Source: Armatimonadota bacterium
GTDB taxonomy: Bacteria > Armatimonadota > Zipacnadia > UBA1398 > JAKPQA01
Direction of reading: 5' to 3'
NCBI GenBank assembly: GCA_029547025.1
Contig: JAKPQA010000028.1
Location: 1 to 44,294 of the forward strand
Length of the DNA stretch: 44,294 nt
Each line of letters begins with the position of its first letter. Within the stretch, counting starts at the first letter, position 1. Shown here one piece after another: positions 5,470-23,445 of this stretch. A model generated the notes under the pieces. It had not been told where the DNA came from, made no database searches, and saw nothing but the letters and a program-made list of their open reading frames with translations. The translations under genes were made by a program, and so were the position numbers.

Positions 5470-7103
5470 GCCCCCTGCTGTTGTACAACGCACGGGTTCT
5501 GACCATGGCGGAACCTCAGATTGCCCGGGCTGTACTGGTGGCCGACGGGCGCATCGTGGCAGTCGGAGGGCCCGAGCTGGCCGAGGGACCGGACCATCCT
5601 GGCGTGCAGCGCGTGGACCTGGCCGGCCGGTGTGTCACACCGGGGCTCATCGACTCCCACCTGCACCTTCGCGGGCTCGGCGACTCGCTCAGCCAGCTCG
5701 ACCTCGCTGGCGTGGCGGACTTCGGGCGCGCCCTCGAGCTGGTCCGCGGTGCCGCAGCGGAGCTCTGGCCCAATGAGTGGCTCACGGGCGGCCGGTTCGA
5801 CCGCAACCTCTGGAACCTGGGCCGGCTGCCTGACCGTCACGATCTCGACGGCGTGGCACCGGCAACCCCCGTACTGCTCTCGAGCAAGGACGGCCACTCC
5901 CTGTGGGCCAACTCGAGGGCCATTGAGATCGCCGGCGTCGGGCCGTCAACCGCGGAGCCGGCCGGAGGACGCATCTACCGTGATGCCGACGGCTACCCGG
6001 TTGGGCTGTTCGCGGAGAACGCGTGTGAACTGATCCGGCGGGCCGTGCCAGAGCCAGGCCAGGCCACGCGCCTGCGCAGTCTGCGTCGAGCCATCGATCA
6101 CCTGCAACGCTTGGGTGTCACGTGCGTCCACGAGATGTCGGCCGAGGGGCAGGGGCTCGCGCACGACCTGCGGCGGCTCCGCGATGAGCGGGGCCATCTG
6201 GGCCTCCGCGTCCGTCTCTCCGTCGGACCGTCGGATGTCGGTGGGCCTGCGGGCGACGAGGATATCCGCCTGGTGGCCCTCAAGCTCTGGATCGACGGCG
6301 CGCTGGGCTCGCAGACAGCGCTGATGGAGGATCCCTATGAGGGCGATGAGCGGAACCGAGGCGTGCAGGCCGTCGACGATACCACGCTGCACCGCCTCCT
6401 CAAGCACGCGGCGTCGGTGGGGCTGGCATGCTGGGTGCACGCCATCGGCGACCAGGCCGTCCGCCTGGCCATCGAGGGCCTCGAATCCGCAGGCTCCCCT
6501 CCCATCGGGCTCCAGCACCGGATCGAGCACGCCCAGTGCGCCCCCGCGGGACTCATCGAGCGGATGGCACGCCTCGGCGTGGCCGCGTCCGTCCAGCCCA
6601 TTCACCAGACGCAGGACATCGAGATTGCCGAACGCTACTGGGGTCGTCGGTCGCGGTGGGCCTACCCGTTCGCATCCATGCGGCGGGCAGGCATCCCTCT
6701 GGTCTTCGGGTCGGACGCCCCGGTCGAGGACGCCGATCCTCGCCGCGGTCTCTGGGCTGCCGTGACCCGGCAACGCGAGGATGGCACGCCGGCCGGCGGC
6801 TGGTTCCCCGAGGAACGAATCGGGATCGAGGCTGCACTTCGAGCCTATACCGTGGAGTCCGCACAGTCTGTCGGCGACGGAGGCCAGCTCGGGGCGATCG
6901 TGCCCGGCGCCCATGCCGACCTGGTGGTGTGGTCGAGCGACGTGGAGAGGATCACCATCGAAGGGCCTGATGCCTGTCGCGCGGTTGCCACGTGCATTGG
7001 GGGGAGGTGGGTGCACTCAGAGATCGGGGACATTGCCGTTTCCAGCGAAGACCCCAAGGCGATGCCCTTACCGCGATCGGAACGCCAGACCTACCGCAGA
7101 TAG
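5466..7103 (+). CDS. YtcJ-type amidohydrolase (amidohydrolase_3 family)
   Basis: A 545-residue metal-dependent hydrolase of the TIM-barrel amidohydrolase superfamily, closest in layout to YtcJ and N-substituted formamide deformylase-like enzymes. The N-terminal beta-sandwich strand (LLLYNARVLTM, then VADGRIVAVGG) leads to the metal-binding DSHLHLRG. Later motifs are the WIDGALGSQTA segment, HAIGD (second-strand His), QHRIEHAQ (paired His) and the final metal or catalytic Asp in VFGSDAPVED. The C-terminal sandwich returns at IVPGAHADLVVW. The substrate is an amide or C-N bond of unknown identity. The GTG start overlaps the stop of the methyltransferase gene by four bases. Its own 3' end overlaps, tail to tail, the end of the Memo-family gene by 13 bases. 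There is no signal peptide, so it should be cytoplasmic. Confidence 0.9.
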   Translation: MSPLLLYNARVLTMAEPQIARAVLVADGRIVAVGGPELAEGPDHPGVQRVDLAGRCVTPGLIDSHLHLRGLGDSLSQLDLAGVADFGRALELVRGAAAELWPNEWLTGGRFDRNLWNLGRLPDRHDLDGVAPATPVLLSSKDGHSLWANSRAIEIAGVGPSTAEPAGGRIYRDADGYPVGLFAENACELIRRAVPEPGQATRLRSLRRAIDHLQRLGVTCVHEMSAEGQGLAHDLRRLRDERGHLGLRVRLSVGPSDVGGPAGDEDIRLVALKLWIDGALGSQTALMEDPYEGDERNRGVQAVDDTTLHRLLKHAASVGLACWVHAIGDQAVRLAIEGLESAGSPPIGLQHRIEHAQCAPAGLIERMARLGVAASVQPIHQTQDIEIAERYWGRRSRWAYPFASMRRAGIPLVFGSDAPVEDADPRRGLWAAVTRQREDGTPAGGWFPEERIGIEAALRAYTVESAQSVGDGGQLGAIVPGAHADLVVWSSDVERITIEGPDACRAVATCIGGRWVHSEIGDIAVSSEDPKAMPLPRSERQTYRR

Positions 7104-7960
7104 CCGACCGCGCCGTAGCCCACGAAACTCGTCGGGCGCCCCAGCGGCAACACGTCATGGCTCGTCGTGTGTCCAAGGACCATGCCTCGAGTGGCTCCAA
7201 GTGCCTGGCCGCACGCGATGGCCGCGGCAGCGGCCCGGGCGCCACATGCCGCGCGTGAGGCCTCCGCATACGAGACCAGCTCGGTGGCCCGCATCGCCTC
7301 TGCCAGGTCGAGGAAACGCCGATCGTTCTCATTGCGGACCCACTCGAGCGACTCCGCACCGGTGCCTCGCGGCGCGAATCCATAGTTGGGGCCGTAGTGC
7401 GTGAGATCCGTAGAACCCACCGCAACCGCCCGGCGCTTCGATCCCGCGAGGACCCTGCCCACCGCGTCACCAATCTCGGTTGCCGGCGCGCCCCGCGGCA
7501 CGATGATGGGCACCACCGTCGCCTCGGGGAAGCAGTGGCGGACGAAGGGCATCAGGATCTCGATGGAGTGCTCGTCGAAGTGGGCCTCGGGGTCATCGGC
7601 CACGATCCGACCCGCCTCCTCCAGAATGGCTCGGCCCAGCCCCACATCGACACGGACCTCGCCCACCGGCGTCTGCCACGTTCCTGAACTCATGAGCGCT
7701 GCATTCCTCAGCCCATAGTGATCGGCGCCAAATAACGCAACAACCTGGGCATCCGATGCCTGGAGGAAACCAAACGTGAGTGCCGCAGTTGGCCCCGAGA
7801 AGTCCCAGCCGGCATGCGGTGCGATGCCCGCCATGGGTTCGCCCGCCGGCGCGGGAAGCGCCGCCGCCGCGGCATCGAGCATCGCCCGCAGGCGAGTCTC
7901 GCACGACGTAGTGCCCGCGGGGTACCAGCTCCCCGCGCGGTCAGCCGGTCGGATCGCCAT
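7091..7960 (-). CDS. Memo-family protein (AmmeMemoRadiSam system protein B)
   Basis: A 289-residue MEMO1-like protein. It starts MAIRPADRAGSWYPAG, the typical opening, and keeps the conserved metal-site-like residues of the family: His in IAPHAGWDFSG, His in GADHYG, the STDLTHYGPNYGF segment, and Cys in RAACGARAA followed by TTSHD. The fold resembles extradiol dioxygenases, but the bacterial role is unclear. In many genomes this protein travels with an AMMECR1 protein and a pyruvate-formate-lyase-activase-like radical SAM protein. Neither is adjacent here: the radical SAM gene at 10496 is a SPASM type, not that partner. ATG 7960 has GGGAGG upstream. The F-domain gene at 7984 lies 23 bases upstream on the same strand, so the two probably share a transcript. 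Confidence 0.88.
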   Translation of the reverse strand: MAIRPADRAGSWYPAGTTSCETRLRAMLDAAAAALPAPAGEPMAGIAPHAGWDFSGPTAALTFGFLQASDAQVVALFGADHYGLRNAALMSSGTWQTPVGEVRVDVGLGRAILEEAGRIVADDPEAHFDEHSIEILMPFVRHCFPEATVVPIIVPRGAPATEIGDAVGRVLAGSKRRAVAVGSTDLTHYGPNYGFAPRGTGAESLEWVRNENDRRFLDLAEAMRATELVSYAEASRAACGARAAAAAIACGQALGATRGMVLGHTTSHDVLPLGRPTSFVGYGAVGYLR

Positions 7961-7983: not shown

Positions 7984-8826
7984 TCAGGCAGTGGAGTCCT
8001 CGTCGGAGGAGTCGACGCTGAGGTCGATGAGCTCCTGCGGGTCGCGGAACGCCACCCGGTCGGCACGCTCGCGCCGGCGCGCCTCCTCTGCCTCGTCCGC
8101 CAACGCGGAAGGCGCCGGAGACGCCACCTCCGCCGGCCGCTGGGTCCGGCGCATGCGCTGAACCGTCCGCACGACACATTCGCCGCAGATCGAGACTCCA
8201 CCCGACGAGACCATCTCCTCGACCTCGCTGTCGAGCCGGCCGCAGAACGAACAACGATGGACCAGCCTCGGCCGGAACTTGTGCACCAACAGGGCGGCCA
8301 ACACAACGCTCAAGCTCACCGTGAGCACGATGTTCGGTGCCAGGTTGTCCGCGGGTATGATGCCGCCCGCCGTCAGATAGAGCACCCCGGCCACCGCGAA
8401 GGCGACCACCGACACGGCCAGGAGCAGGCCCAGGATCAGCGGCCGCAGCGCCTCGACCACCAGGGCCATGTCCAGGTTCACCGTGACCTCGGGCTGGGAG
8501 CCGGACAGCCCGCCGCGCGCCTCGGCCTCGTAGTGATCGGCCAGGCGCTGCAGCACGTCGGGTAGGGCCCCCTCGATCTCGCCTTGCCGGACGAGTTGAA
8601 TGAAGAAGGGCGAGAAGTCCTGTGGATAGCGCGAGAAGGCCACCGCCAGTGGGACGCCCATCTCCAGGTCTTCCTGAACGCCGAGGAGCACCTCGCGCAG
8701 GTACTCGTTTCCCGTCTGCTGCCTGAGCGTAGCCACCACAGGGAGCAGGTTCACGTCGGCCGACAGCATGGTGCCAAACTGGCGGCAGAAGTGAGCCATC
8801 TCCGGTGCCGGAATGCGAGACTCCAT
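7984..8826 (-). CDS. Single T2SS F domain fused to ClpX-type zinc finger
   Basis: A 280-residue membrane protein with an unusual domain order. Residues 11-100 match the cytoplasmic GspF/PilC helical domain (FCRQFGTMLSADVNLLPV, then a Gly-x-Pro-Leu turn, FSPFFIQLVRQGEIEGALPD). Normal GspF/PilC proteins have two such domains; this has one. Two transmembrane helices follow at about 130-152 and 165-182. Next is a zinc finger, C192-x2-C195-x18-C214-x2-C217, with the look and exact spacing of the ClpX N-terminal C4 finger (CSFCGR ... ICGEC). The tail (about 225-280) is charged and disordered. ATG 8826 is chosen because upstream sequence is not protein-like. No ATPase or pilin genes are nearby. It may recruit a partner or substrate to the membrane rather than drive secretion; that is inference. 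Confidence 0.82.
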   Translation of the reverse strand: MESRIPAPEMAHFCRQFGTMLSADVNLLPVVATLRQQTGNEYLREVLLGVQEDLEMGVPLAVAFSRYPQDFSPFFIQLVRQGEIEGALPDVLQRLADHYEAEARGGLSGSQPEVTVNLDMALVVEALRPLILGLLLAVSVVAFAVAGVLYLTAGGIIPADNLAPNIVLTVSLSVVLAALLVHKFRPRLVHRCSFCGRLDSEVEEMVSSGGVSICGECVVRTVQRMRRTQRPAEVASPAPSALADEAEEARRRERADRVAFRDPQELIDLSVDSSDEDSTA

Positions 8827-8960: not shown

Positions 8961-9716
8961 GTGATCCCGCGGATCGACGATGCTGAGGCAGCCGCCCGAG
9001 CTCTCGCACGGGCCGAGTCCATACTGGTGATCACCGGCGCGGGCATGTCGGCCGAGAGCGGAATCCCGACGTTCCGCGGTCCCGATGGGCTCTGGGAAGG
9101 CCGGTCGGTTGAGGACGTGGCGACCCCAGAGGGTTTCGCGCGCGACCCGGCTGGCGTGTGGCAATGGTACAGCGATCGCCGACGCAACTGCCTGCAGACA
9201 GAACCACACGCGGGCCACGTGGCCCTGGCGCGACTCGAACACGGACACCGGGCCCCCGTCACGATCGCCACGCAGAACATCGATGGGCTGCATCGGCGCG
9301 CTGGAAGCGGCGATGTCATCGAGCTCCACGGCAGTCTGTTCACCACCCGGTGCTCGAAGTGCTCCCACCAGGTTCCTGAAGACCGCGCATTCTACTCGGA
9401 GCCCCCCACATGCGAGTACTGCGGGGCGCCCATGCGCCCCGGCGTCGTCTGGTTCGGCGAGATGCTGCCCGCAGACCGCTTGCTCCGGGCCCAGGCGCTC
9501 AGCCAGGAGTGCGACGTCGTCCTGGTTGTCGGTACCTCGGCGGTGGTTCAGCCGGTGGCCAGCCTGCCGCTCTACGCCCGGCACTCAGGCGCGACACTGG
9601 TCGAGGTCAACCCTCAGGAGACGCCCCTGACCCCGGTGTGCCACTTCGCGTTCCCTCATGCCGCGGGAGAGGTGCTGCCCCAACTCGTCGACCGGGCCCT
9701 GGCCATGGTAGAGTAG
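8961..9716 (+). CDS. cobB: Sirtuin, NAD-dependent protein deacylase (Sir2/CobB family)
   Basis: A 251-residue class III sirtuin. The Rossmann-fold NAD motif is GAGMSAESGIPTFRG (about 22-36). It is followed by TQNIDGLH, which supplies NAD contacts, and the catalytic His in ELHGS. The structural zinc is held by four cysteines arranged CSKC and CEYC. The second NAD contact is VVGTSAVVQP, and VEVNP follows as usual. It removes acetyl or related acyl groups from protein lysines, using NAD and releasing nicotinamide. The Tyr/Arg pair that marks the desuccinylase type is not obvious, so acyl preference is open. GTG 8961 begins the frame, 134 bases from the divergent F-domain gene, so a promoter pair probably lies between. 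The metallo-beta-lactamase-fold gene follows after 24 bases and is probably cotranscribed. Confidence 0.92.
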   Translation: MIPRIDDAEAAARALARAESILVITGAGMSAESGIPTFRGPDGLWEGRSVEDVATPEGFARDPAGVWQWYSDRRRNCLQTEPHAGHVALARLEHGHRAPVTIATQNIDGLHRRAGSGDVIELHGSLFTTRCSKCSHQVPEDRAFYSEPPTCEYCGAPMRPGVVWFGEMLPADRLLRAQALSQECDVVLVVGTSAVVQPVASLPLYARHSGATLVEVNPQETPLTPVCHFAFPHAAGEVLPQLVDRALAMVE

Positions 9717-11884: not shown

Positions 11885-12658
11885 TTGACGCGGGGGCTGT
11901 ACACGTCAGCCTCCGGTATGCTCGCTCTGCAAGTGGCCCTGGACGCGACGGCCAACAACCTGGCCAACGTGGCCACGGTCGGGTACAAACAGGATCGAGC
12001 GGTCTATCACGACTTCCGGGATCTGCTGATCTCGAGGCTCTACGATACGCCGGAGGGCCCGGTGCCCCCAGTTCCGTGGGGGACCCCGCCCATCGGCCGT
12101 CTGGGAACGGGCGTCTATGTGGAGGACATCGCCACGGACTTCACCGCCCAGGGCCCGCTGCAGCAGACCGGGGGCGATCTGGATGTCGCGTTGGTCGGTT
12201 CGGGCTTCCTGGTGGTGCGCACGCCATCGGGCGAGAGGTACACGAGGGCTGGCCAGCTCGTGAGAGACGCGCAGGGGTTCCTGGTGAACGATGACGGCCA
12301 CCTGGTGCTGGGGGAGAACGGACCCATCCGGCTGGCGGCCGACACGCCGACGTCGGAGATCCGGATCGCCGAGAACGGTGAGGTCTTCGAGCGAGACCAG
12401 CGGATCGGGCGCCTTCGGATCGAAGACCTGTTGCCGGGGGCAGTCAAAGAGGGGTACACTCTGGTTCGTGGTACGTCGACGGGTCAGGCGTCCGGCTCGA
12501 CTGTGGTGAAGCAGGGGTACCTGGAAGGGTCCGCAGTCAACGGCATCCGCGAGACCGTCGAACTGATCCAGATCGAGCGAGCGTATCAGGCAGGACAGAG
12601 ATCCATCGAAGCGGTAGATGACAGTCTAGGCCGGCTGTTCGAGAAAGTGGCCGGGTAG
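11885..12658 (+). CDS. flgF: Flagellar basal-body rod protein FlgF
   Basis: A 257-residue proximal-rod protein of the FlgF/FlgG family. The N-terminal rod motif reads YTSASGMLALQVALDATANNLANVATVGYKQ. The central domain has VALVGSGFLVV and YTRAGQLVRDAQGFLV, and the C-terminal helix is VELIQIERAYQAGQRSIEAVDDSLGRL. The shorter length and SGFLVVRTPSGERYTR section favour FlgF over FlgG, and the next gene is the clearer FlgG. Translation starts at TTG 11885, fixed by a near-perfect AGGAGGTGA four bases upstream. It is exported by the flagellar type III system without a cleaved signal. It opens the flgF-G-A-H-I-J series, but a 278-base gap separates it from flgG. Confidence 0.92.
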   Translation: MTRGLYTSASGMLALQVALDATANNLANVATVGYKQDRAVYHDFRDLLISRLYDTPEGPVPPVPWGTPPIGRLGTGVYVEDIATDFTAQGPLQQTGGDLDVALVGSGFLVVRTPSGERYTRAGQLVRDAQGFLVNDDGHLVLGENGPIRLAADTPTSEIRIAENGEVFERDQRIGRLRIEDLLPGAVKEGYTLVRGTSTGQASGSTVVKQGYLEGSAVNGIRETVELIQIERAYQAGQRSIEAVDDSLGRLFEKVAG

Positions 12659-12936
12659 TCGCCAGCGGCGGATTCGCCGCCAACGAGAGTCGAGGCACGA
12701 CGGCTGGACCGAGCTCCTCGCGGAGCCGGAAGCCGCGCACCGCGGACTGACAGAAGCGGTGCCCCAACCCGTGGCAGGGCTAGGCGAGTTCCGAAGCGGC
12801 CTTCGGAGCGGCTCGTCGGGCTTCCCCGGGTCTCCAGCACCTCGCCTCACTCTCGGCGACCCACCGATCAGTGCCACCAGACCGTCAGCCGGCTCGGGAC
12901 AGAGTCCCTGCACCACCACTGGAGGTGTGAGTCGGT
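12659..12936. other. flgF-flgG intergenic gap with three hairpins
   Basis: A 278-base gap, unexpectedly long between two rod genes. GCGGCG-GATT-CGCCGC (12665-12680) follows the flgF stop and could end or attenuate the flgF transcript, although no T-run follows. CCGAAG-CGGC-CTTCGG (12791-12806) and GGGAC-AGA-GTCCC (12896-12908) are also perfect. A separate flgG promoter is implied but I cannot point to convincing boxes. GGAGGTG (12921-12927) is the flgG ribosome binding site. Confidence 0.45.
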
Positions 12937-13722
12937 ATGATGCGGTCGCTGTTCACGGCGGCGGGCGGCATGGCAGCCATGCAGCTGCACGTCGACGTCA
13001 CGGCCAACAACCTATCCAACGTCAACACCTGGGGCTACAAGCGTGCTCGAATCGACTTCCAGGACCTGCTCAGCCAGACGCTGAGGGGGCCGGGGGCGCT
13101 CTCGTCGGGGGGGCAGATGATCCCAACCGGGCTCACCGTGGGCCTCGGCGTCCGCCCCGCCGCCACCGTCCGCGATTTCTCGCAAGGCATGTTCGTCGAG
13201 ACCGGGCTGCCCACCGATGTGGTCATCGAGGGCCAGGGCTTCTACCAGATCCTCCTGCCCGACGGTACCACCGCCTACTCCCGCGACGGATCGTTCAAGC
13301 TGGACGCCAACGGCCAGCTGGTCACCGCCGATGGCAACTACCTCCAGCCCCAGATCACGATCCCCGCCAACACCATCCAGACCACGATCGATTCCTCGGG
13401 CACGGTGACCGTGACCCTGCCCGGCAATGTCCAGCAGAACGTCGGGCAGTTCGAACTCGCGCGATTCGTCAACCCGGCCGGCCTGCTCTCGGTGGGCAAG
13501 AACCTCTTCCTCGAGACGCCGGCCTCCGGCCCGCCCATCACGGGGACACCGGGCACGGACGGCATGGGCACCATCACCCAGGGCTACCTCGAGGGCTCCA
13601 ACGTCCAGGTTGTCAGCGAGATGGTCAACCTGATCATCGGCCAGCGGGCCTTCGAGTCCAACTCCAACACCATCCGCACGTCGGATGACATGCTCGGCAC
13701 CGCCACGGCTCTGAGACGCTAG
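12937..13722 (+). CDS. flgG: Flagellar distal rod protein FlgG
   Basis: A 261-residue distal-rod subunit. The N-terminus is MMRSLFTAAGGMAAMQLHVD, followed by the conserved ANNLSNVNTWGYKRARIDFQDLL. The central domain has VIEGQGFYQILLPDGTTAYSRDGSF, and the C-terminal helix is EMVNLIIGQRAFESNSNTIRTSDDML. These are textbook FlgG features and length. The start is ATG 12937 or the adjacent ATG 12940, preceded by GGAGGTG. FlgG forms the rod segment that crosses the periplasm and passes through the P and L rings, whose genes follow directly (flgA after 15 bases, then flgH and flgI). It lacks a Sec signal, as expected for a flagellar type III substrate. Confidence 0.95.
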   Translation: MMRSLFTAAGGMAAMQLHVDVTANNLSNVNTWGYKRARIDFQDLLSQTLRGPGALSSGGQMIPTGLTVGLGVRPAATVRDFSQGMFVETGLPTDVVIEGQGFYQILLPDGTTAYSRDGSFKLDANGQLVTADGNYLQPQITIPANTIQTTIDSSGTVTVTLPGNVQQNVGQFELARFVNPAGLLSVGKNLFLETPASGPPITGTPGTDGMGTITQGYLEGSNVQVVSEMVNLIIGQRAFESNSNTIRTSDDMLGTATALRR

Positions 13723-13737
13723 GGTGGGTGATGCACC

Positions 13738-14739
13738 ATGAAAGCGCTGTGTCGCACTGCGCTGTGGGTCACCGCCGCCCTGGCGATGACCTCCGCGTCG
13801 TGGGCGAAGACCCAGATCGCGCTGAACCTCCAGCCCGAAGTGGCCTCGGGCCCCGTGACTTTGGGCGACGTGGCCCGGATCACCAGTGGCGAGGCCGGCA
13901 TGGTCGAGCGCCTCTCGGCGGTGCGGATCGGTACGGCCCCTCTCCCGGGGGCCTCGCGCGTCGTCTCCCTGAACTCGATCCTGCTCGCTCTCCGCCAGCA
14001 CGGGCTGAACCCAGACCTGATGGAGATCACTCCCAGGGGTGACATCACGCTCACGACTCACTGCAACCGAATCCTCGGGGCCGAGCTTCTCGAGAAGGCG
14101 CGCGAGCTGGTCCTGGCCGCCCTCCCGTACTCGCCCGACGCCGTCCAGATCCTGGCGAAGAACCTGCCCGAGGAGATCGTGGTCGACCCGGGCGATGTGG
14201 CCGTCTCTGTGGTAGTGCAGCCCAACGAGGACTTCATCGGCTACACATTCCTGACATTTGACATAACGGTCAATGGGCAGCTCAAGCGGCGGGTCAGCCT
14301 CCACCTCCAGGTCAGCGTGACCGCCGAGGTGGCGGTGGCCGCCGGCAACATTCAGCGTGGCCAAGTGCTGTCGGCCGCCGACGTGGTGTTCGAGCCCCGT
14401 GACCTGGCGACGACGGGCGGCCCGTGCGTCACCAGCCTCGACGAGATCGTTGGCATGCGTGCCCGGGTCGGCTTCCGCCAGGGGCAGCTGCTCGTCGCAC
14501 GGATGCTCGAAGCTCCCCCCGCCGTGCAGCGGGGCGATGCGGTCGTCCTCCAGGCCGTCGCCGGATGCGTGCTCATCTCGGCGCCGGCCGTGGCCAAGCA
14601 AGACGGCCGGGTCGGTGACCGCATCCTCGTGCGAAACCAAGCGACGGGCAAAGAGCTCACCGCCAGGATCATCGACAAGAGCACGGTTCGCGTGGATGTC
14701 CGCGCCACCCCGGCGCGGCTGGAAGGAGACGCATCGTGA
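13738..14739 (+). CDS. flgA: Flagellar P-ring assembly chaperone FlgA
   Basis: A 333-residue periplasmic chaperone for P-ring (FlgI) assembly. A Sec signal peptide spans about 1-23 (hydrophobic LWVTAALAMTSASWA). The central part resembles the long FlgA versions seen outside Enterobacteria. The C-terminal half contains the SAF domain (AGNIQRGQVLSAADVVFEPRD) and the typical end (GDAVVLQAVAGCVLISAPAVAKQDGRVGDRILVRN, then VDVRA). It is longer than E. coli FlgA, with an added N-terminal region (about 24-150) whose DVARITSGE segment is seen in related long forms. ATG 13738 is 15 bases from flgG. Its stop overlaps the GTG start of flgH (GTGA, 14736-14739), so the two are translationally coupled. Confidence 0.93.
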   Translation: MKALCRTALWVTAALAMTSASWAKTQIALNLQPEVASGPVTLGDVARITSGEAGMVERLSAVRIGTAPLPGASRVVSLNSILLALRQHGLNPDLMEITPRGDITLTTHCNRILGAELLEKARELVLAALPYSPDAVQILAKNLPEEIVVDPGDVAVSVVVQPNEDFIGYTFLTFDITVNGQLKRRVSLHLQVSVTAEVAVAAGNIQRGQVLSAADVVFEPRDLATTGGPCVTSLDEIVGMRARVGFRQGQLLVARMLEAPPAVQRGDAVVLQAVAGCVLISAPAVAKQDGRVGDRILVRNQATGKELTARIIDKSTVRVDVRATPARLEGDAS

Positions 14740-15341
14740 GATCCCATCGCGCAGTACCGGCACTGCTGGCCTGCGCGGCCGCACTCGCCGTCGCTCGGGG
14801 CGCCAGCGCCCGCTCTCTCTGGGTCGCCCCCGACGGGCTCAGCCCCAAGGGCAGCCGCACGCTCATCGCCGATCCCGTCGCCCGCCAGGTAGGCGACGTC
14901 GTCACCATACTCATCAGCGAGACGACCCAGGCCGGCAATCAGGCGAGTCACGAGACCAGTCAGGACAGCGGCAGTGCACTCAGCGCCGGCCAGGGACTCC
15001 TCAGTTTCATCCCATTCTTCAGCCTGGGTGCCGAAGACAGTTATGGCTTCGAGGGCACCCAGAGCTGGCGCGGCACTTTCGTGGCCCGCATGTCCGCCGT
15101 GGTCAAAGAGGTCATGCCCGGCGGGCTCCTCGTCATCGAGGGCTCCCGGTCCGTCGACGTCAATGGCGAGAAGCAGGAGCTCACGCTGACCGGGACCGTG
15201 CGCGCCATGGACATCTCGAGAGCCAACACCATCAGCTCTCAACAGATTGCGGACGCCAGAATCCGCTACAAAGGCGCAGGGCCCATGGGCCAGAAGGCCA
15301 AGCCGGGGATCCTCACCCGGCTGCTCGATTTCCTGTTCTAG
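14736..15341 (+). CDS. flgH: Flagellar L-ring protein FlgH, apparently not lipidated
   Basis: A 201-residue outer-membrane L-ring protein. Family motifs are ARQVGDVVTILISETTQA, a central YGFEGTQSWRGTFVARMSAVVKEV, then LLVIEGSRSVDVNGEKQ and the C-terminal RANTISSQQIADARIRYKG. Its presence shows an outer membrane. FlgH is normally a lipoprotein, but here the N-terminus looks like an ordinary Sec signal with a cleavage site near GASA-RS. The only Cys (residue 14, in LLAC) comes after just 13 residues, too early for a normal lipobox. The GTG start overlaps the flgA stop by four bases. FlgI follows after 12 bases. Together flgA-H-I make the bushing of the rod. Confidence 0.93.
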   Translation: MRSHRAVPALLACAAALAVARGASARSLWVAPDGLSPKGSRTLIADPVARQVGDVVTILISETTQAGNQASHETSQDSGSALSAGQGLLSFIPFFSLGAEDSYGFEGTQSWRGTFVARMSAVVKEVMPGGLLVIEGSRSVDVNGEKQELTLTGTVRAMDISRANTISSQQIADARIRYKGAGPMGQKAKPGILTRLLDFLF

Positions 15342-15353
15342 GGGGCGATAGCG

Positions 15354-16496
15354 TTGCTGCGTTGGCGCGTGTGTCATGTCTGGACCGCACTGCTGCTCGT
15401 GGCCGCGACCGCTCCGAGCCTCGCGCAGGCGCCGATCGGGTCCGGCACGACCGGCCCTCGCACCCGGCTCAAAGACATCGGCAAAGTCCAGGGCGTGCGG
15501 TCGAACCAGCTCTTTGGCCTCGGAATCGTCGTCGGGCTTGATGGGACCGGCGACTCCCAACAGGCCGTCTTCACCAGTCAGGCACTGCTCAACCTGTTAG
15601 CTCAGCTTGGCGTCAACGTCGAAGGCCAGGTCCGCACCCAGAACGTGGCGACGGTCATGGTTACCGCCGAGCTACCCGCCTTCGTGAAGCCGGGCGACCG
15701 CATTGACGTCACGGTGTCGTCCATCGGCAACGCCAAGAGCCTCCAGGGCGGTCAGCTCATCCAGACGCCTCTGCAGGGCGCGGATGGCGACGTCTACGCC
15801 GTAGCGCAGGGGCCCATCACCATCGGTGGGTTCAATGCCACGGGCGGCGGCGGCGGGGAGCGGGTGACCAAGAACCACCCCACCGCCGGCCGGATCCCCA
15901 ATGGCGCCATCGTCGAGAAAGAAGTCGAGATGGAGATGGTGCAAGAGCGGTCCCTCACCGTCACCCTGAGCCACGCCGACTTCTCTACCGCCTCGAGGGC
16001 GGCGGCCGCCATCAACGAGGCGATCCCTCGGGCGTCGGCACGCGCCATCGACGCCTCGTCGATCCGCGTCAGCCTCCCGCCAGATGCCGAGTTCAGCCTC
16101 ATCGATCTCATCGCCCAGATCGAGACCGTCGAACTTACCGTCGATACACCGGCCAAGATCGTCATCAACGAGAAGACCGGCACCGTCGTCATGGGGGGCA
16201 ACGTGCGCGTCCAGCCCGTGGCCGTGGCCCACGCCAACCTGAGCGTCCAGGTCTCAGCCACGCCCGTCGTCTCCCAGCCGCCACCGCTCTCGTCAGGGCA
16301 GACCGTCGCCGGAACCAAGACCAAACTGACCGTGACCGAAGGCCAGTCCCGGCTCATGCCGGTCATGGGGGGCGATACCATTGACGATGTCATCTCGTCA
16401 TTGAGCGCCATCGGCGCCACGCCGCGCGACATGATCGCGATCCTACAGGCCATGAAGTCCGCCGGAGCCATTCTGGCGGAGATCGAGATGCAGTAG
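15354..16496 (+). CDS. flgI: Flagellar P-ring protein FlgI
   Basis: A 380-residue periplasmic P-ring subunit with a Sec signal (WTALLLVAATAPSLAQA). The family sections are in order: RLKDIGKVQGVRSNQLFGLG, VVGLDGTGDS, NVATVMVTAELPAFVKPGDRIDV, SSIGNAKSLQGGQLIQTPL, GADGDVYAVAQGP, the NGAIVEKEV segment, and near the end MPVMGGDTIDDVISSLSAIGATPRDMIAILQAMKSAGAI. Length is standard. It begins at TTG 15354 with a GGGGG stretch as a weak binding site; no better ATG exists before the signal peptide. It lies between flgH and flgJ on one transcript. Confidence 0.95.
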   Translation: MLRWRVCHVWTALLLVAATAPSLAQAPIGSGTTGPRTRLKDIGKVQGVRSNQLFGLGIVVGLDGTGDSQQAVFTSQALLNLLAQLGVNVEGQVRTQNVATVMVTAELPAFVKPGDRIDVTVSSIGNAKSLQGGQLIQTPLQGADGDVYAVAQGPITIGGFNATGGGGGERVTKNHPTAGRIPNGAIVEKEVEMEMVQERSLTVTLSHADFSTASRAAAAINEAIPRASARAIDASSIRVSLPPDAEFSLIDLIAQIETVELTVDTPAKIVINEKTGTVVMGGNVRVQPVAVAHANLSVQVSATPVVSQPPPLSSGQTVAGTKTKLTVTEGQSRLMPVMGGDTIDDVISSLSAIGATPRDMIAILQAMKSAGAILAEIEMQ

Positions 16497-16528
16497 GCGA
16501 CTGGACCCACGTCAGGGGAGTGATGGGT

Positions 16529-16891
16529 ATGGCTCTGGAGCTTCTCGGGGCGGGGGACGTGCCGGCCTCAGCGCTGAACGTCGCAGACCTGAACAGCTTG
16601 CGGAAGCTGGGCGAGACCTCGGCCGGCCTACGGGCCGCCGCCCAGGAGTTTGAGTCATTCCTTCTGTACCAACTTGTCCAGAGCATGCGCAAGACCATCC
16701 ACAAAGTCGAGATGTTCCACGGCGGACGGGCGGAGGAGATGTGGGAGGGTATGCTGGACCAGGAGCTCACCAGGGAGCTCGCCAAGGCAGGTGGGATTGG
16801 CCTGGCCAAGATGATCTACGACCAAATGGCCTCGCAGGTAGAGAGTGAGGACTCTGCGCCTCCGGGCGCACTTGTGGCCGAACAACGCTAG
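16529..16891 (+). CDS. flgJ: FlgJ-like rod-binding protein, no hydrolase domain
   Basis: A 120-residue protein with only the rod-binding (FlgJ N-terminal) domain: AAQEFESFLLYQLVQSMRKTI, then FHGGRAEEMWEGMLDQEL and KAGGIGLAKMIYDQM. The peptidoglycan-hydrolase half of enterobacterial FlgJ is absent, as in many bacteria where a separate enzyme opens the wall; that enzyme is not in this window. I prefer ATG 16529 because AGGGGAG lies eight bases before it; GTG 16520 and ATG 16523 are in frame and possible. The gene is 23 to 32 bases after flgI and ends the rod/ring series. A hairpin (16944-16962) and a 379-base gap follow before flgM. Confidence 0.88.
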   Translation: MALELLGAGDVPASALNVADLNSLRKLGETSAGLRAAAQEFESFLLYQLVQSMRKTIHKVEMFHGGRAEEMWEGMLDQELTRELAKAGGIGLAKMIYDQMASQVESEDSAPPGALVAEQR

Positions 16892-16943
16892 GGATTCCGT
16901 GTTCCGGGTGCCGCGAAACCCCCGCGGAGACCCTGCCAGGCCC

Positions 16944-16962
16944 GCCGTCACACCACGACGGC
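16944..16962 (+). terminator. Hairpin after flgJ
   Basis: Six perfect pairs, GCCGTC / GACGGC, with a seven-base ACACCAC loop, about 50 bases after the flgJ stop. There is no T-run, as for most hairpins in this G+C-rich window, so it may be a Rho-assisted or weak terminator. Confidence 0.35.
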
Positions 16963-16993
16963 CCAACAAGCAAAGATTCCGGTCCCAATGGGC

Positions 16994-17021
16994 TCAAGAG
17001 GCCTCGCCAATGTGCCGATAG
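16994..17021 (+). promoter_or_regulatory. Candidate sigma-28 promoter for flgM operon
   Basis: TCAAG (16994-16998) resembles the sigma-28 -35 (TAAAG), and GCCGATAG (17014-17021) is one base from the -10 consensus GCCGATAA. The spacing is one base longer than in E. coli. The site sits about 250 bases before flgM, whose operon (flgM, flgN, flgK, flgL) is a classic sigma-28 target. The long leader it implies contains the hairpin at 17131-17149. Confidence 0.45.
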
Positions 17022-17270
17022 AACAAGTGGCAAAACGCGACAGGACCGTGAGGGCGAAGTGTGCCCTGGTGCTCCATCGAAGCAGGAGGCCCGCATGTGG
17101 CAGGCTGCATCGGCGAACTTCCGGCCACAGCCGGTTCGTTCTGAACCGGAACGGTACTGCGTCGCGTTCATCCACGTTCGTGCCACTTGGTGGCCAGGCA
17201 TCAGCAACTCGTTGCGAGGCGCGGCTTCTGAGGTCTTCGGGACCGGCCAGCCCTCTAGGGGGCGTCGGGG

Positions 17271-17576
17271 ATGCTAGTCACGAACCGGAATGTACAGGAT
17301 CTACTCCGATCCTTCGCTCAGCGCACGTCGCGAACCGAAGACGTAGCGCGCGCGGAGGTGGCCAAGCCGGCCGAATCCACGGTCGTCCGCAAGTCGGACG
17401 AAGTCGTCCTCTCGCAGGAGGCGCAGGAGGTGCACCGGGCCTTGCGGGCGCTCAAAGAGACTCCCGAGGTCCGAGAGGACCTGGTGGCCGATCTGCGCCA
17501 GCGGATCCAGGACGGCACCTACAAGGTGGACTCCGAGGAGATCGCTGAACTGCTGCTGTCCGACGACGACGAGTAG
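17271..17576 (+). CDS. flgM: Anti-sigma-28 factor FlgM
   Basis: A 101-residue FlgM. The C-terminal sigma-binding half has VVLSQEAQEVHRALRALKETPEVRED, then LVADLRQRIQDGTYKVDSEEIAELLL, the usual pattern of FlgM (RVxxLKxxIxxGxYxVDxxxIA). The N-terminal half is polar and likely disordered. FlgM holds sigma-28 inactive until hook completion, when it is exported and late genes switch on. ATG 17271 overlaps a GGGG stretch. The gene begins the Bacillus-like late block flgM-flgN-flgK-flgL. A candidate sigma-28 promoter upstream would put FlgM under its own target factor, as in other bacteria. Confidence 0.92.
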   Translation: MLVTNRNVQDLLRSFAQRTSRTEDVARAEVAKPAESTVVRKSDEVVLSQEAQEVHRALRALKETPEVREDLVADLRQRIQDGTYKVDSEEIAELLLSDDDE

Positions 17577-17695
17577 CCCGCCGGCGGCGGCCGATCCGGC
17601 CGTCTCCATCGGGCTACACGCGGCCGATCACTGACCTGGCCAAGATCGCTTCCGCCAACGTCCGTGCGGCAAGAGCCGGGGACGAGAGGTGCCCT

Positions 17696-18199
17696 GTGCC
17701 ACCTGTGGCAGACCTGTTCCACCAGCTCGAGCGGATCCTCGAGGAACAGCTGGCGGGGCTTCGTGAGCTCCTCAGCCTCATGGGGGCTCAGGAGGAAGCC
17801 CTGGTGACGGGCCAGCCGGATCGGATCCGCCCCCTGGTTCGCCTTCAGGAAGCGGCCGCCTCTCGTCTCGAGTGCGCCGAAGAACGGCGACAGGCCGCTT
17901 CGGCCAAGCTGGCTGGCGCTTTGGGGCTTCCACCCGATGCGGCTCTGCGTGAGATCGCGCGGTCCCTTCCGGCCTCAGACGCCCAGAGGGCCCTCGCTCT
18001 ACTGGGCGATATGACCCGGACCATGGGGGATCTGGCCAGTAGCAGCCGCCGCAATGAGGCCCTGGTGCGCCATGCGGTGGCGAGCACGCGCCACGCCATT
18101 GCGGTGCTCACCGAAGCTCAGCTGAGGGCCGACGGGCGTTACGTGCCGCCAGGCCGACCGAGGCGCGCGACTCAGGGCGTGGTGGACTGCCAGGTCTAG
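17696..18199 (+). CDS. flgN: FlgN-family export chaperone
   Basis: A 167-residue helical protein of the FlgN family: LERILEEQLAGLRELLSLMGAQEEALVTG, and then the ASRLECAEERRQAASAKLAG helix. The C-terminal helices end in a tail rich in Arg and Pro. FlgN binds the C-terminal ends of FlgK and FlgL and delivers them to the export gate. Its position between flgM and flgK matches yvyG in Bacillus. GTG 17696 is used, preceded by GAGAGGTG. The 119-base gap from flgM shows no separate promoter. Confidence 0.85.
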   Translation: MPPVADLFHQLERILEEQLAGLRELLSLMGAQEEALVTGQPDRIRPLVRLQEAAASRLECAEERRQAASAKLAGALGLPPDAALREIARSLPASDAQRALALLGDMTRTMGDLASSSRRNEALVRHAVASTRHAIAVLTEAQLRADGRYVPPGRPRRATQGVVDCQV

Positions 18200-18246
18200 T
18201 CGGACACAGCGCCCGTGTTCGCCACGAACGCGAGGTGCGATGACTC

Positions 18247-19665
18247 ATGATGACGAGGTCGACGTTCTTCGGGATAGAACTGGGCAAGCGGGCCATCATG
18301 GCCCAGCGAGCCGGCACCGACGTGGTCGGGCACAACCTGGCCAATCAGAGCACCGAGGGCTATTCCCGCCAAAGCCTGTACCTGGTGCCCTCGAGCCCCT
18401 TCGCGACGCCCACCACCGCGCCCTACAACATGGCAGGGCAGCTAGGCACCGGTGTGATGGCCGAGACGATTGCACGTGCACAGAACGAGTACATCACAAA
18501 CCAAATACGCGGATCGACGTCGCGGCAGGCGCGACTCGACGTGCTGGCCGATACCTACTCACAGCTCGAGGGTATCGTCGACGTCTCCTCGGATGCCTCG
18601 CTGGACCAACTCCTGACCGACTTCTTCTCGGCATGGCACGACCTCAGCCTCTCGCCCGAAGAGACCGCCAACCGGACGGCACTGCGCGAGGCGGCCAGCA
18701 CACTGGCGTCGGAGTTCGGACGCATCGACGCGGCTCTGACGGCCATTCGGGAACAGCTGGATGGTGACATTCAGCTCATGGTCGACACCGTCAACCGGAT
18801 CGGTGCCGACCTCGCCGCCGTGAACCACGAGATCCAGAAGGTCAACGCCTCAGACCAAGTGCCCAACGACCTGATGGATCGCAGAGACGCCTTGCTGCTC
18901 GAACTGAGTAGCTATGTTAGTATAACATCACTCATACAGGAGGACTCCTCGGTCTTTGTGACCATCGGGGGACGCATGTTCGTCCAGGACGACAAGTTCC
19001 ATGGCCTCGCCACGTCTGTGGACACAGCGAACTCGGGATACCTGCGCGTGGTCTACGCGGACCGGCCCCATCTCGAGGTCACGGCCATCGGCGGCAAGCT
19101 CATGGCCACACTGGAGGCCAGGGACCAGGTTGTCCCGGCCTTCGCCGACAGCATTGACGATATCGCGTCAGTGCTGATCACTGAGGTGAACAACCTTCAC
19201 CGAGGTGGCTACGGGCTCAACGACACGACCGGCTATGACTTTTTCACGGGCACCGACGCCGGCACCATCGCCGTGGCCACAGTCATACAGAACGATCACC
19301 GGGCCATCCAGGCGGCCCGCGATCCATCGTCGCCCGGTGACGGTCGCATAGCCCTGGCTATCGCCCAGCTGGTCGGCTCGCAGATGATGGCCCTCGACGG
19401 CGCTACACTGCCGGCGTTCTACCGGGCGGTGATCAGCGAACTGGGCGCCACCGCCGATGGGATTGAGCGGGCGGGCCAGAGCGAGAATCAGGTCGCGGCA
19501 CAGCTTGGGACCATGCGCGAATCCCAGCTGGGCGTGAACATGGATGAGGAGCTGATCAACCTGATCCGATACGAGCAGGGCTATGCGGCGGCGTCGCGCG
19601 TCATCACCACCGTCGACGAGACACTCGATCGGCTCATCAACGCCACGGGGCTCGTCGGGCTCTAG
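18247..19665 (+). CDS. flgK: Hook-filament junction protein FlgK
   Basis: A 472-residue FlgK (HAP1). The N-terminus has FFGIELGKRAIMAQRAGTDVVGHNLANQSTEGYSRQ, the D0 rod/hook motif. The middle contains the conserved QLEGIVDVSSDASLDQLLTDFFSAWHDLS and INxVNNLH-like TEVNNLHRGGYG. The C-terminus ends MDEELINLIRYEQGYAAASRVITTVDETLDRLIN. Size is standard. It forms the junction between hook and filament with FlgL, which follows after 33 bases. A short AT-rich patch with a perfect ATGTTA-GTA-TAACAT palindrome (18914-18928) and rare ATA codons stands out in its middle. ATG 18247 starts the frame. Confidence 0.95.
   Translation: MMTRSTFFGIELGKRAIMAQRAGTDVVGHNLANQSTEGYSRQSLYLVPSSPFATPTTAPYNMAGQLGTGVMAETIARAQNEYITNQIRGSTSRQARLDVLADTYSQLEGIVDVSSDASLDQLLTDFFSAWHDLSLSPEETANRTALREAASTLASEFGRIDAALTAIREQLDGDIQLMVDTVNRIGADLAAVNHEIQKVNASDQVPNDLMDRRDALLLELSSYVSITSLIQEDSSVFVTIGGRMFVQDDKFHGLATSVDTANSGYLRVVYADRPHLEVTAIGGKLMATLEARDQVVPAFADSIDDIASVLITEVNNLHRGGYGLNDTTGYDFFTGTDAGTIAVATVIQNDHRAIQAARDPSSPGDGRIALAIAQLVGSQMMALDGATLPAFYRAVISELGATADGIERAGQSENQVAAQLGTMRESQLGVNMDEELINLIRYEQGYAAASRVITTVDETLDRLINATGLVGL
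18914..18928. repeat. AT-rich palindrome inside flgK
   Basis: ATGTTA-GTA-TAACAT, a perfect six-pair inverted repeat, with codons ATA and ACA around it that are rare in this genome. It lies in the stretch coding YVSITSLIQ. Confidence 0.6.
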
Positions 19666-19698
19666 AACGCCGCCTCGCTCTGGGGAGCTGGATCCACA

Positions 19699-22191
19699 AT
19701 GCGCATCACAAACAACACTCTGACCAATAACCTGAGGCGCAACCTTTCGAGCAACCTCGAGAGGCTGGCCATCCTTCAGGAGCACATCTCGACCAGCAAG
19801 CGCATACTTAAGCCGTCCGACGACCCTATCGGCATCGCACGTGCCCTCAGCCTCTCCCGGGCTATCAGCGTCGCCGAGCAGTACCAGTACAACAGCGAAG
19901 ACACCGTGGCTTTCCTCGAACAGACCGAGACCTCTCTAGCCTCGCTGGGCGATACGCTCGAGTCCGCGCGCGAGCGCATCGTCGAGGCCGCGAACGACAC
20001 GCTGAGCCAAGTCGATCGCCAGGCCATCGCGGCCGAGGTCGACGCCTACATCGACCAGGTCATCAGTGCCGCCAACGCCCAAGAGGGCAGCCGCTCCATC
20101 TTCGCGGGGTATCAGACCACCGACCCAGCCGTGACAGTCGTGCGCGACTCCAGCGGCCGGGTCATCGATGTGGTCTATGATGGGGATGACGGCCTACTGC
20201 TTCGCGAGATCGCCAGCGGCGAGGTCGTCGCGGCCAACTTGACCGGGCGCGAGGTCTTCTTCGGCCAAACCCATCAGGTGACCAGCCTCGACGGCGTTGG
20301 GGCGGGAAATGAGAGGGCCGTACTCGACACGCTTGGGTTGGGGATCACCGACAGCCGTTTCACCATCAACGGGGCCAGCTTCACCGTCTCGACTGTGGCC
20401 CAGTCGCTCGAGGACGTGGCGAGGCTCATCAACGACAGCGCGGTGGCCAATGTGCGCGCCACCATCAGCGATACCGGCCAGCTGATCCTGACCTCGAACA
20501 GTGCCACGCAGACCATGGAGATCCAGAGTGTGTCGGGCAACTTCCTGAACGTGATGGGTGTCCTGGGCGGGTGGCCAGCCACAGGCTCCATCGGCTCCGC
20601 AACCACCGCCGACGCGTTGTCGGCGGTCACCTCAACTTACGGCACGGCGACTGCGGGACGCATCACATTCGACACCGACGCCGCCGGCCTCGTCGTGGCC
20701 GGCACCGTGGCTTGGACGGCCGACCCACGATGGGGCGCGGCTCTCACGACGGGTCAGCAAGCCCAACTCACGGCTCTCAACGCGGGCGGCATGGCACTGC
20801 AACCCGACAGCCTGAGCGCCTTCGGGCTGAGCCTCACCGTCAACGGTGCGCCCTCCACGGCGGGCACCACCGAGATCGTCCTCGCTGGGTCCCAGATCGT
20901 CGGGACTCAGGTCGAGCCCCGGAATGTCTTTGCCACACTCATTCAGCTCCGGGACGATCTGCTGGTCGCCGATGAGGCGTACTTCGCGCCAACGCCCACC
21001 ATCACGGGAACAACCGACGTGGTCCGAGCGGTGCAAGTCTCTCCGGACGGGACTGACGGAACGTACATTCGAGGCTCTCTGTCGATTCAGGTCGATAGCC
21101 AGGGAAGGACTGTGGCGGGGGGCGTGCGCTTCAGTCCGCTCTACGACGGCTTACCTCTCGACGAAGACCAGCAGGCGCAACTCGATGCACTCAATGCCGG
21201 CGGAGTAACTCTGGCATCGGATTCCCTCTCCGCACTGGGGCTCACCCTGACGCTCCAGATTCCGCCGGCCACGGCCGGGACAGCCGTCATCGAGATCGCG
21301 CCGGTCGAGCGCAACATGCGCACCCAGAACCTCAACGAGGTTGGTCTCACCGCGAAGGTCTCGGGCGGGGGGATCGTGGCGGCATGGGGGACGCCGCTCG
21401 ACGGCCGGTCAGGGTCCCATCGGCTGACCGTGAGTCACGTCGCACTGGGGGCCGCCACGGTTGGCGGAGCGGCCAACGTGGTGACCGGCGTCCGCAATGA
21501 CGCCGACCAGAACGCGGGTGTGTTCAGGTTCACCACAGATGCCAACGGTGTGGTGCTCGCCGGGTCGGTCGTCTTCGAGCCCGCAGCCGTCGGCGGCCGC
21601 GCTCCGACGGCGGCCCAGCAGGCCCAGCTCGATGCGCTCAACGCGGGGGGCGTGGCCGTGACCGCCGACGCACTCAGCACTTTCGGTATCCGCCTCACGA
21701 CTAGCGGCGGAGGCCCCCCGTACACCCCCGGCGCCACGATCATCACCATCGCGCCAACAACTGCCACCGTGACCGATGAGTTCTACCCCGCCGATGGGAC
21801 GGGGGTTGTCACGACATCCGACACCATCATGGCCAACGCGCTCAACGAGCTGTCGAACTCGGTCCGGGGAGCCACGGTCGTCACCGGCGACCTGATTGAG
21901 GGGGGCTCGGCGATCATCACATCGACCTCCCGAGTGCGCGAGCTGGACCTCAACCTGGACGTCCAGCTGCGGCAGCACGCCGACGTGGGAGCCCGCTACA
22001 ACCGCGTCGGGGCCAACATCGAGAATCTGAGCACGAACAAGCTCAACTTCCAGTCGCTGCTCAGCAAGGTTGAGGGCCTGGACATGTCGGCGGCCGCGGT
22101 CGAGTACCAGGCCCTCGACAACGTCTACGAGGCATGTCTCTCCGTGGGATCGCGTGTGATCTTGACGACGCTACTAGACTACCTCCGATAG
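19699..22191 (+). CDS. flgL: Enlarged hook-filament junction protein FlgL
   Basis: An 830-residue FlgL (HAP3), about twice the usual 300-400. The N-terminal D0/D1 helices are clear: MRITNNTLTNNLRRNL, then LERLAILQEHISTSKRILKPSDDPIGIARALSLS and the AAEVDAYIDQVISAANAQ helix followed by SIFAGYQT. The C-terminal D1/D0 ends with LSTNKLNFQSLLSKVEGLDMSAAAVEYQALDNVYEACLSVGSRV. Between them is a flagellin hook IN motif (FTINGASFTVS ... LIND, about 215-285). Then three related inserted modules of about 80 residues occupy 319-397, 458-535 and 606-686, each with QQAQLxALNAGG and DSLSAFGLxLT. The insertions would stand out from the junction as extra surface domains. The frame is intact and codon use is normal. 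The gene lies between flgK and a yviE-like gene, as in Bacillus. Confidence 0.92.
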   Translation: MRITNNTLTNNLRRNLSSNLERLAILQEHISTSKRILKPSDDPIGIARALSLSRAISVAEQYQYNSEDTVAFLEQTETSLASLGDTLESARERIVEAANDTLSQVDRQAIAAEVDAYIDQVISAANAQEGSRSIFAGYQTTDPAVTVVRDSSGRVIDVVYDGDDGLLLREIASGEVVAANLTGREVFFGQTHQVTSLDGVGAGNERAVLDTLGLGITDSRFTINGASFTVSTVAQSLEDVARLINDSAVANVRATISDTGQLILTSNSATQTMEIQSVSGNFLNVMGVLGGWPATGSIGSATTADALSAVTSTYGTATAGRITFDTDAAGLVVAGTVAWTADPRWGAALTTGQQAQLTALNAGGMALQPDSLSAFGLSLTVNGAPSTAGTTEIVLAGSQIVGTQVEPRNVFATLIQLRDDLLVADEAYFAPTPTITGTTDVVRAVQVSPDGTDGTYIRGSLSIQVDSQGRTVAGGVRFSPLYDGLPLDEDQQAQLDALNAGGVTLASDSLSALGLTLTLQIPPATAGTAVIEIAPVERNMRTQNLNEVGLTAKVSGGGIVAAWGTPLDGRSGSHRLTVSHVALGAATVGGAANVVTGVRNDADQNAGVFRFTTDANGVVLAGSVVFEPAAVGGRAPTAAQQAQLDALNAGGVAVTADALSTFGIRLTTSGGGPPYTPGATIITIAPTTATVTDEFYPADGTGVVTTSDTIMANALNELSNSVRGATVVTGDLIEGGSAIITSTSRVRELDLNLDVQLRQHADVGARYNRVGANIENLSTNKLNFQSLLSKVEGLDMSAAAVEYQALDNVYEACLSVGSRVILTTLLDYLR
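20653..21756 (+). repeat. flgL: Three diverged ~80-codon repeats inside flgL
   Basis: Repeats at 20653-20889, 21070-21303 and 21514-21756. Shared features in order: an F-x-x-D strand start, G-x-V-V/L-A-G, then QQAQLxALNAGG, a D-S-L-S-A-F/L-G-L turn and a closing strand ending ATIITIAP or similar. Differences are spread throughout, so they are old duplications rather than recent copies. Confidence 0.85.
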
Positions 22192-22274
22192 CCCCTGCCG
22201 CCACACCCCAGCCATGGTGGGAAGGCCGCGGGAGGCCCGGAGAAGCATGGATCGGCAGAACGGGATGGTGACGC

Positions 22275-22859
22275 ATGAGCCAGGTGAGCCAGGTGCGGAT
22301 GCACACTACCTACGCCCGCGTCGCCGTCTACCAGCGTGACACCGAGCTGGATGTCGTGCACCGGCGCGAGCCGTTCACGTCACCGATCCGCACGGAGGTG
22401 CGGCTGGAGAGCTCGGGGCCCTCGGTCGAGATCGATGGAACCGTCATGCGGGAAGCGTTGGGAATCCGGACGAACGAGGCCTTCAGACGGAAACGGGTGT
22501 CCGACAGCTGGGCGGCCGCGGCGGCGTCCCTGGACCGGATTGTCGCCAAAGGCCATGCCCTGGGCGACATCGCCCACGGCCGCACGGTGGCCGACGTGGC
22601 GTCAGCCCAGACCCGGGACCGGCCAGAGCCCGAGTTGGTCGTGGCGGATGTACCGCCTCCGTCGGTGAGTATTGCGCCGAAGACAGTCCAGGTCAGCACC
22701 GAGACTGTGGGCGGAACCAGCCTACTTCGGCGCACCGTGATCCAGATGAACTGGAGCCCGCTGGAGTTCGATGTGCGACTCGAACCGCCGGGCGATGTGG
22801 CGATGGCGGTGGTTCCGGGTGGGTTCGCCGTGGGGCGTGAGGTCGATGCCTTCGCCTAG
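22275..22859 (+). CDS. YviE-like protein (DUF6470 family)
   Basis: A 194-residue protein with position and size of B. subtilis YviE: between flgL and fliW. The N-terminal part begins with polar MSQVSQVRMHTTYARVAVYQ and SPRTEV-like repeats (TSPIRTEVRLESSGPSVEIDG); the middle is Ala-rich helix; the end contains IQMNWSPLEFDVRLEPPGDVAMAVVPG, a strand-rich motif also found in this family. There is no signal peptide or enzyme motif. In Bacillus the gene is part of the flagellar transcript but its role is unclear. I rely on synteny plus overall pattern. It starts 83 bases after flgL and ends 36 bases before fliW. Confidence 0.75.
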   Translation: MSQVSQVRMHTTYARVAVYQRDTELDVVHRREPFTSPIRTEVRLESSGPSVEIDGTVMREALGIRTNEAFRRKRVSDSWAAAAASLDRIVAKGHALGDIAHGRTVADVASAQTRDRPEPELVVADVPPPSVSIAPKTVQVSTETVGGTSLLRRTVIQMNWSPLEFDVRLEPPGDVAMAVVPGGFAVGREVDAFA

Positions 22860-22895
22860 GCGTGCTGCTCCGAGGCGGAAGGGACGGGAGAGCTG

Positions 22896-23366: not shown

Positions 23367-23445
23367 GCAACATGGCGGCGGGAGAGTCATCGGCTGCGCG
23401 GGAGCCCCGCGCGGACCCCAGCGGTCGCGGCCACGGAGGGCTAGG

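Follow-up and report, generated by a model that had tools for sequence, protein, structure and literature searches.

A conserved Armatimonadota protein with a ClpX-type zinc finger in place of the second half of a pilus platform protein

What is a protein that combines a single GspF/PilC-type F domain, two membrane helices and a ClpX-type zinc finger, and what might it do at the membrane? We met this question in the window, the whole 44,294-nucleotide stretch of DNA analysed here, where a sequence-only reading had described such a protein at 7984-8826. These coordinates were correct, and the gene lies on the minus strand with the following features.

7984..8826, minus: F domain/membrane hairpin/ClpX-type finger protein of 280 aa (ATG at 8826, stop at 7984-7986), supported by orthologues
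8515..8790, minus: T2SSF domain (residues 13-104), the counterpart of cytoplasmic domain 1 in PilC/GspF (Pfam, fold and F1/F2 domain tree)
8365..8469, minus: first membrane helix, residues 120-154; its Arg-Pro (128-129) takes the place of the Tyr-Pro of platform proteins
8278..8352, minus: second membrane helix, residues 159-183
8167..8256, minus: C4 ClpX-type zinc finger, residues 191-220 with C192, C195, C214 and C217 (Pfam, orthologues and fold)
7987..8136, minus: acidic tail, residues 231-280, predicted to be disordered

Both domains named in that reading scored significantly in HMM checks. T2SSF (PF00482) covered residues 13-104 with 74.9 bits against a cut-off of 25.2 (E = 7.1e-21), and zf-C4_ClpX (PF06689) covered residues 191-220 with 39.4 bits against a cut-off of 27 (E = 5.4e-10). 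The exact ClpX spacing (C192-x2-C195-x18-C214-x2-C217) and the two membrane helices, seen as hydrophobic stretches at about 118-159 and 161-185 and modelled by AlphaFold2 at 120-154 and 159-183, were also confirmed. In phmmer searches the closest solved sequences were domain 1 of PilC and GspF, followed by the ClpX zinc-binding domain. An HMM match above the gathering score together with the six-helix F fold places the protein in the T2SSF superfamily, and a match above the cut-off, the finger fold and the four cysteines do the same for the PF06689 finger. Since the NCBIfam models of GspF, PilC and ClpX matched only partially and far under their cut-offs (73 bits against 424 for GspF), the protein is neither GspF nor ClpX. 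Pfam found no AAA+ ATPase domain after the finger, as a ClpX chaperone would have, and there is one F domain with two membrane helices where a PilC/GspF platform has two F domains and three.

The AlphaFold2 model, built on an 11-row family alignment, had a mean pLDDT of 77 and agreed with the proposed domains. Its F domain was confident (pLDDT 93-97 by ten-residue blocks over residues 11-100), the finger formed a small beta-hairpin plus helix around residues 190-229, and the tail was disordered. The F domain matched domain 1 of PilC, OutF and EpsF (Foldseek TM by target 0.80-0.92; VIA Z 18-19, with 18.9 for PilC domain 1). The finger matched the ClpX zinc-binding domain (Foldseek TM 0.79-0.86; VIA Z 6.6 against 2ds8, rmsd 1.0 Å over 41/41 residues), where a VIA Z below 8 may reflect a common arrangement and the identification also rests on sequence.

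The host phylum of the family is Armatimonadota. A profile search of 291 genomes gave 49 with matches at E <= 4e-45, and the next proteins, at 4e-34 and weaker, were ordinary PilC/GspF-type proteins. The finger is carried by 11 of the 49 family genomes, which belong to seven taxonomic families (f1, f2, f12, f13, f14, f22 and f23), and Cys 192, 195, 214 and 217 are invariant in all 11 full-length orthologues. The remaining 38 genomes (families f3-f10, one class) have a short form of mostly about 190 aa that lacks the finger and stops after the second helix (32 of the 38 were read and placed on the tree). In a twelfth genome, G210 (family f37), the finger has diverged to C-x2-C-x16-C-x2-C and escapes the Pfam model. 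In total, this half-platform family was found in 16 of the 45 Armatimonadota families. Because orthologues with four invariant cysteines occur in 11 genomes of seven families, the fusion is no assembly accident, and the identical fusion in independent genomes rules out a chimera. The fusion protein is real, ancient within the phylum and conserved. A contig scan of genomes, with a sensitivity limited by the search pattern, revealed no T2SSF plus finger fusion outside Armatimonadota; nine candidate loci from Bacillota were rejected as ordinary two-F proteins. Among the matches listed, phage records gave F-domain matches only, at 35-40% coverage.

To which half of a platform protein does the F domain correspond? 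In a tree of separate domains it grouped with F1 and apart from F2 of PilC (100/100), so the protein is the F1 half of a platform protein, and its finger occupies the place of F2 and TM3. The first cytoplasmic domain and two membrane helices thus come from a PilC/GspF ancestor, whose F2 and TM3 have been replaced by the finger and acidic tail. In a PilC-rooted tree of the F-TM-TM region, the finger forms were basal and the short forms made up one clade (100/99); G210 is a long branch of unsure position. The economical reading of this topology is one fusion and one loss, with the finger ancestral in the half-platform family and lost once, in the largest subclade, where the F domain was kept. 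One could take that loss, together with the loss of the TM1 proline in the same clade, as the decay of a platform-gene relic under weak constraint, but the breadth of the family across the phylum and the persistence of invariant cysteines and F-domain residues at 30-47% identity make a relic extremely unlikely.

Work on PulF described two conserved pairs, Tyr-Pro in TMS1 and Glu-Pro in TMS3, and we tested for this hallmark, accepting Gln-Pro in TMS3 (PMC10790770). The window protein has Arg-Pro in TM1 and no TMS3. The other finger forms have Arg-Pro or Trp-Pro in TM1 (Trp-Ile in f13, motif absent in G210), the short forms have lost the proline, and the link from F1 to TM1 is about 15 residues longer in the family than in platform proteins. 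Since Tyr-Pro is altered, Glu-Pro is absent and the link is lengthened, a normal force-transmitting pilus platform is unlikely. Compared with PilC, GspF and PulF, the window protein shares the domain-1-type F domain followed by two membrane helices, but lacks F2, TM3 and the N-domain and adds the finger and tail.

A reduced platform is a separate alternative, in which the protein would assemble pilins in the manner of TadB or TadC, together with the PilB and PilC of the genome. The sequence-only reading's rule of two F domains in normal F proteins has exceptions, as TadB, TadC and SpoIIIAB each have one; TadB and TadC, reported as fission products of a two-domain ancestor, show that single-domain platforms work (PMC10191384), and the F domain here is clearly of the platform family. 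However, the window protein has its F domain first with no helix before it, no adjacent partner F gene, and the family gene was not in a Tad locus in any locus read. Neither a second single-F gene, as in the adjacent pair of a Tad locus, nor a constant pilin, prepilin peptidase or other second-F neighbour appeared in the neighbourhoods read, and the genomes have separate full PilC loci. With the altered hallmarks described above, we consider a working reduced platform unlikely. SpoIIIAB, the GspF-like protein of sporulation, is a further parallel: it has a single F-like domain in a non-pilus setting and a related fold (Z 9.8, 6bs9), but only about 8% identity and no finger. Its partner in sporulating Bacillota is the ATPase SpoIIIAA. 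Elsewhere in the window's genome, two very diverged GspF-like proteins of 401 and 394 aa lie in tandem (L112:696-3090, G000:C180).

The finger raises the question of whether ClpX is involved. The family finger keeps the zinc ligands, FCG (SCG in G210) and IC-x2-C (not in G210), thereby sharing both spacing and signature with ClpX. It differs in lying towards the C terminus of a membrane protein, and in the residues past the fourth cysteine: L-C-N-x-I-[IL] was missing from 12/12 family fingers, whereas eight of the nine ClpX proteins read in these genomes had it and the other had L-C-N-E-V-L. In nine of ten finger-form genomes scanned, Pfam found the finger exactly twice, in one ClpX-sized protein (G000:C137 in the window's genome) and in the family protein; in G210 it was found only in the ClpX-sized protein. 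ClpX fingers form dimers to which adaptors dock (PMC12373786, PMC7226468), and an SspB peptide is among their ligands (PMC12373786). By analogy, a dimer role is plausible for the family finger.

The sequence-only reading had suggested that the protein could tether a protease adaptor or client at the membrane. As a ClpXP membrane adaptor, its finger would pair with the ClpX zinc-binding domain or capture adaptors, bringing protease or clients to the membrane. The restriction of the finger to a ClpX-sized and a family protein, the agreement of the folds and the adaptor docking of ClpX fingers would fit this role. Tails from f12, f13, f14 and f22 (L010-L012, L014-L016, L018) also end in E-x-[FI]-x-I-[LVI]-[KRPT], which we take to recall the ClpX-binding tail of SspB. 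This motif is a weak lead as a docking motif, and it is missing from the window protein, f2 and f23; the window protein and f2 carry an R-D-P...[IV]-D-L motif at the tail end instead. Against an adaptor role, no SspB homologue was found in 12 genomes tested, ten of them with the family finger, the ClpX-specific residues past the fourth cysteine are not kept, and one large subclade lost the finger while its F domain stayed. No Clp gene was recognised beside the family gene in 30 neighbourhoods read. The tether thus found no support in these data, and we regard a ClpXP adaptor as unlikely.

We then turned to the gene neighbourhoods. The genes flanking the window copy are as follows.

7091..7960, minus: Memo-family gene (PF01875, Pfam), starting 23 bp past the F/finger stop (start and ribosome site read)
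8961..9716, plus: Sir2-family deacylase (PF02146, Pfam), the divergent neighbour

The Memo and F/finger genes are probably co-transcribed in the window's genome. Beyond Sir2 are metallo-beta-lactamase-fold and radical-SAM genes and then a flagellar run. None of this is conserved, as Sir2, Memo and the flagellar run were absent from the relatives' neighbourhoods read. The flagellar run itself (11885-23706, plus) contains FlgF/G-type rod proteins, FlgH, FlgI and FlgK by Pfam, with FlgA, FlgL, FliW and CsrA assigned by reading only. A seemingly conserved neighbour at 19 loci proved to be the antisense of the F/finger gene itself.

All eight finger loci outside the window's class have efp upstream on the same strand, in four cases separated from the finger gene by a few to about 25 bp, and five have dnaE downstream. 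This linkage could point to a translation-linked membrane protein that works with EF-P, its finger perhaps touching the ribosome or nascent chain. However, efp is not adjacent to the finger gene in the window or its order, and linkage to efp and dnaE may mean only a shared housekeeping operon. To our knowledge an F domain has no role at the ribosome, and we judge a function with EF-P very unlikely.

The remark that no pilus or secretion genes lie beside the gene was right for the window, but not for seven relatives, in which a GspE/PilB-type ATPase is the divergent neighbour. This MshEN-T2SSE ATPase lies about 0.3-2.6 kb from the short form in seven genomes of four families (G246, G247, G260, G262 and G264 from neighbourhoods read, G259 and G261 from coordinates). 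The linked ATPases and their orthologues formed one group (90/93), to which belong unlinked copies in G253, G255 and G271 as well as sister copies in the finger-form genomes G004, G005 and G007, all of other classes. Of the 19 short-form loci read, 11 have a gene for a small TPR protein just upstream. Two of the unlinked copies have settings of their own: the locus in G253 (L122:4050-7785, minus) has the orphan ATPase followed by a two-F protein without obvious membrane helix and then a TPR protein ending in a zinc ribbon, and L121 of G255 holds the ATPase and a TPR zinc-ribbon protein. They look like another rearranged ATPase/F/TPR/zinc set. In G007, an F domain (residues 45-132) is fused ahead of a degenerate GspE-type ATPase with the Walker motif GPAGSGRT (L042:1-1686, plus); the F/finger gene follows on that strand after about 4 kb.

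Does the ATPase also travel with the family where the genes are apart? A profile of the ATPase clade, scored on the four best candidates per genome, gave 36 genomes at >= 772 bits; the next score was 681. The half-platform family was present in 35 of these 36; the exception among 241 genomes without the family was G273, which is 87% complete and lies within a positive taxonomic family. By form, the clade occurred in 32 of 38 short-form genomes and 3 of 11 finger-form genomes, and not in G210. By taxonomic family, it occurred in 11 of 16 with the half-platform family and 0 of 29 without. Fisher p was 4e-32 per genome and hypergeometric p 4e-7 per taxonomic family, both values uncorrected for relatedness.

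Direct binding of platform proteins to the extension ATPase has been reported, with each Cyto domain modelled on one ATPase N2 domain (PMC10191384, PMC10790770). Our tentative preference, held at somewhat less than an even chance, is that the protein serves as a scaffold on which a GspE-family ATPase docks at the membrane, and that the finger and acidic tail provide a second module for docking or dimerisation. The HMM and fold domains, the F1 grouping, the gene linkage and the genome co-occurrence argue for it. The protein would most likely span the inner membrane so that its two ends both lie in the cytoplasm. Its F domain would dock a hexameric GspE/PilB-family ATPase, probably an orphan outside pilus loci, and the finger may dimerise or dock a partner at the place of F2. 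Because the linker between F domain and TM1 is flexible and the hallmark residues are altered, we infer that it would anchor or regulate the ATPase rather than turn pilin into filament. In the finger-less subclade, the small upstream TPR protein may supply partner binding.

Several observations argue against ATPase docking. The co-occurrence is confounded by shared ancestry, and the finger gene outside the window's class follows efp, often with dnaE next, and is not beside an ATPase. In addition, the profile search of the four best candidates per genome placed no member of the orphan clade in the window's genome or in the finger-form families f2, f22 and f23, so a partner there would be another GspE-type ATPase, of which each genome holds several. 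An MshEN-T2SSE-HDOD fusion of 887 aa lies away from platform genes in the window's genome (G000:C108, L108:6462-9125; Pfam) and could be the partner of the window protein, with no link between the two seen. A bolder version of the docking scaffold is a non-pilus module in which the orphan MshEN-GspE ATPase and its half-platform anchor would be coupled by the ClpX-derived finger to a second machine, possibly ClpXP. This is improbable in our estimate, as is the rewired use of ATPase anchor and ClpX finger, not described before, that it would entail.

The protein is a T2SSF-family variant whose combination of a T2SSF domain with a ClpX finger we did not find reported in the open-access literature, where absence is weak evidence. 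Since evolution separated the F1 half from the F2 half here, the family is a natural test of what F1 alone does at its interface with a GspE-type ATPase, which is poorly understood in type IV filament machines. If the docking scaffold holds, a pair of F domain and secretion ATPase can be taken out of pilus assembly and put to new use as a scaffold at the membrane, and a ClpX finger can function apart from ClpX.
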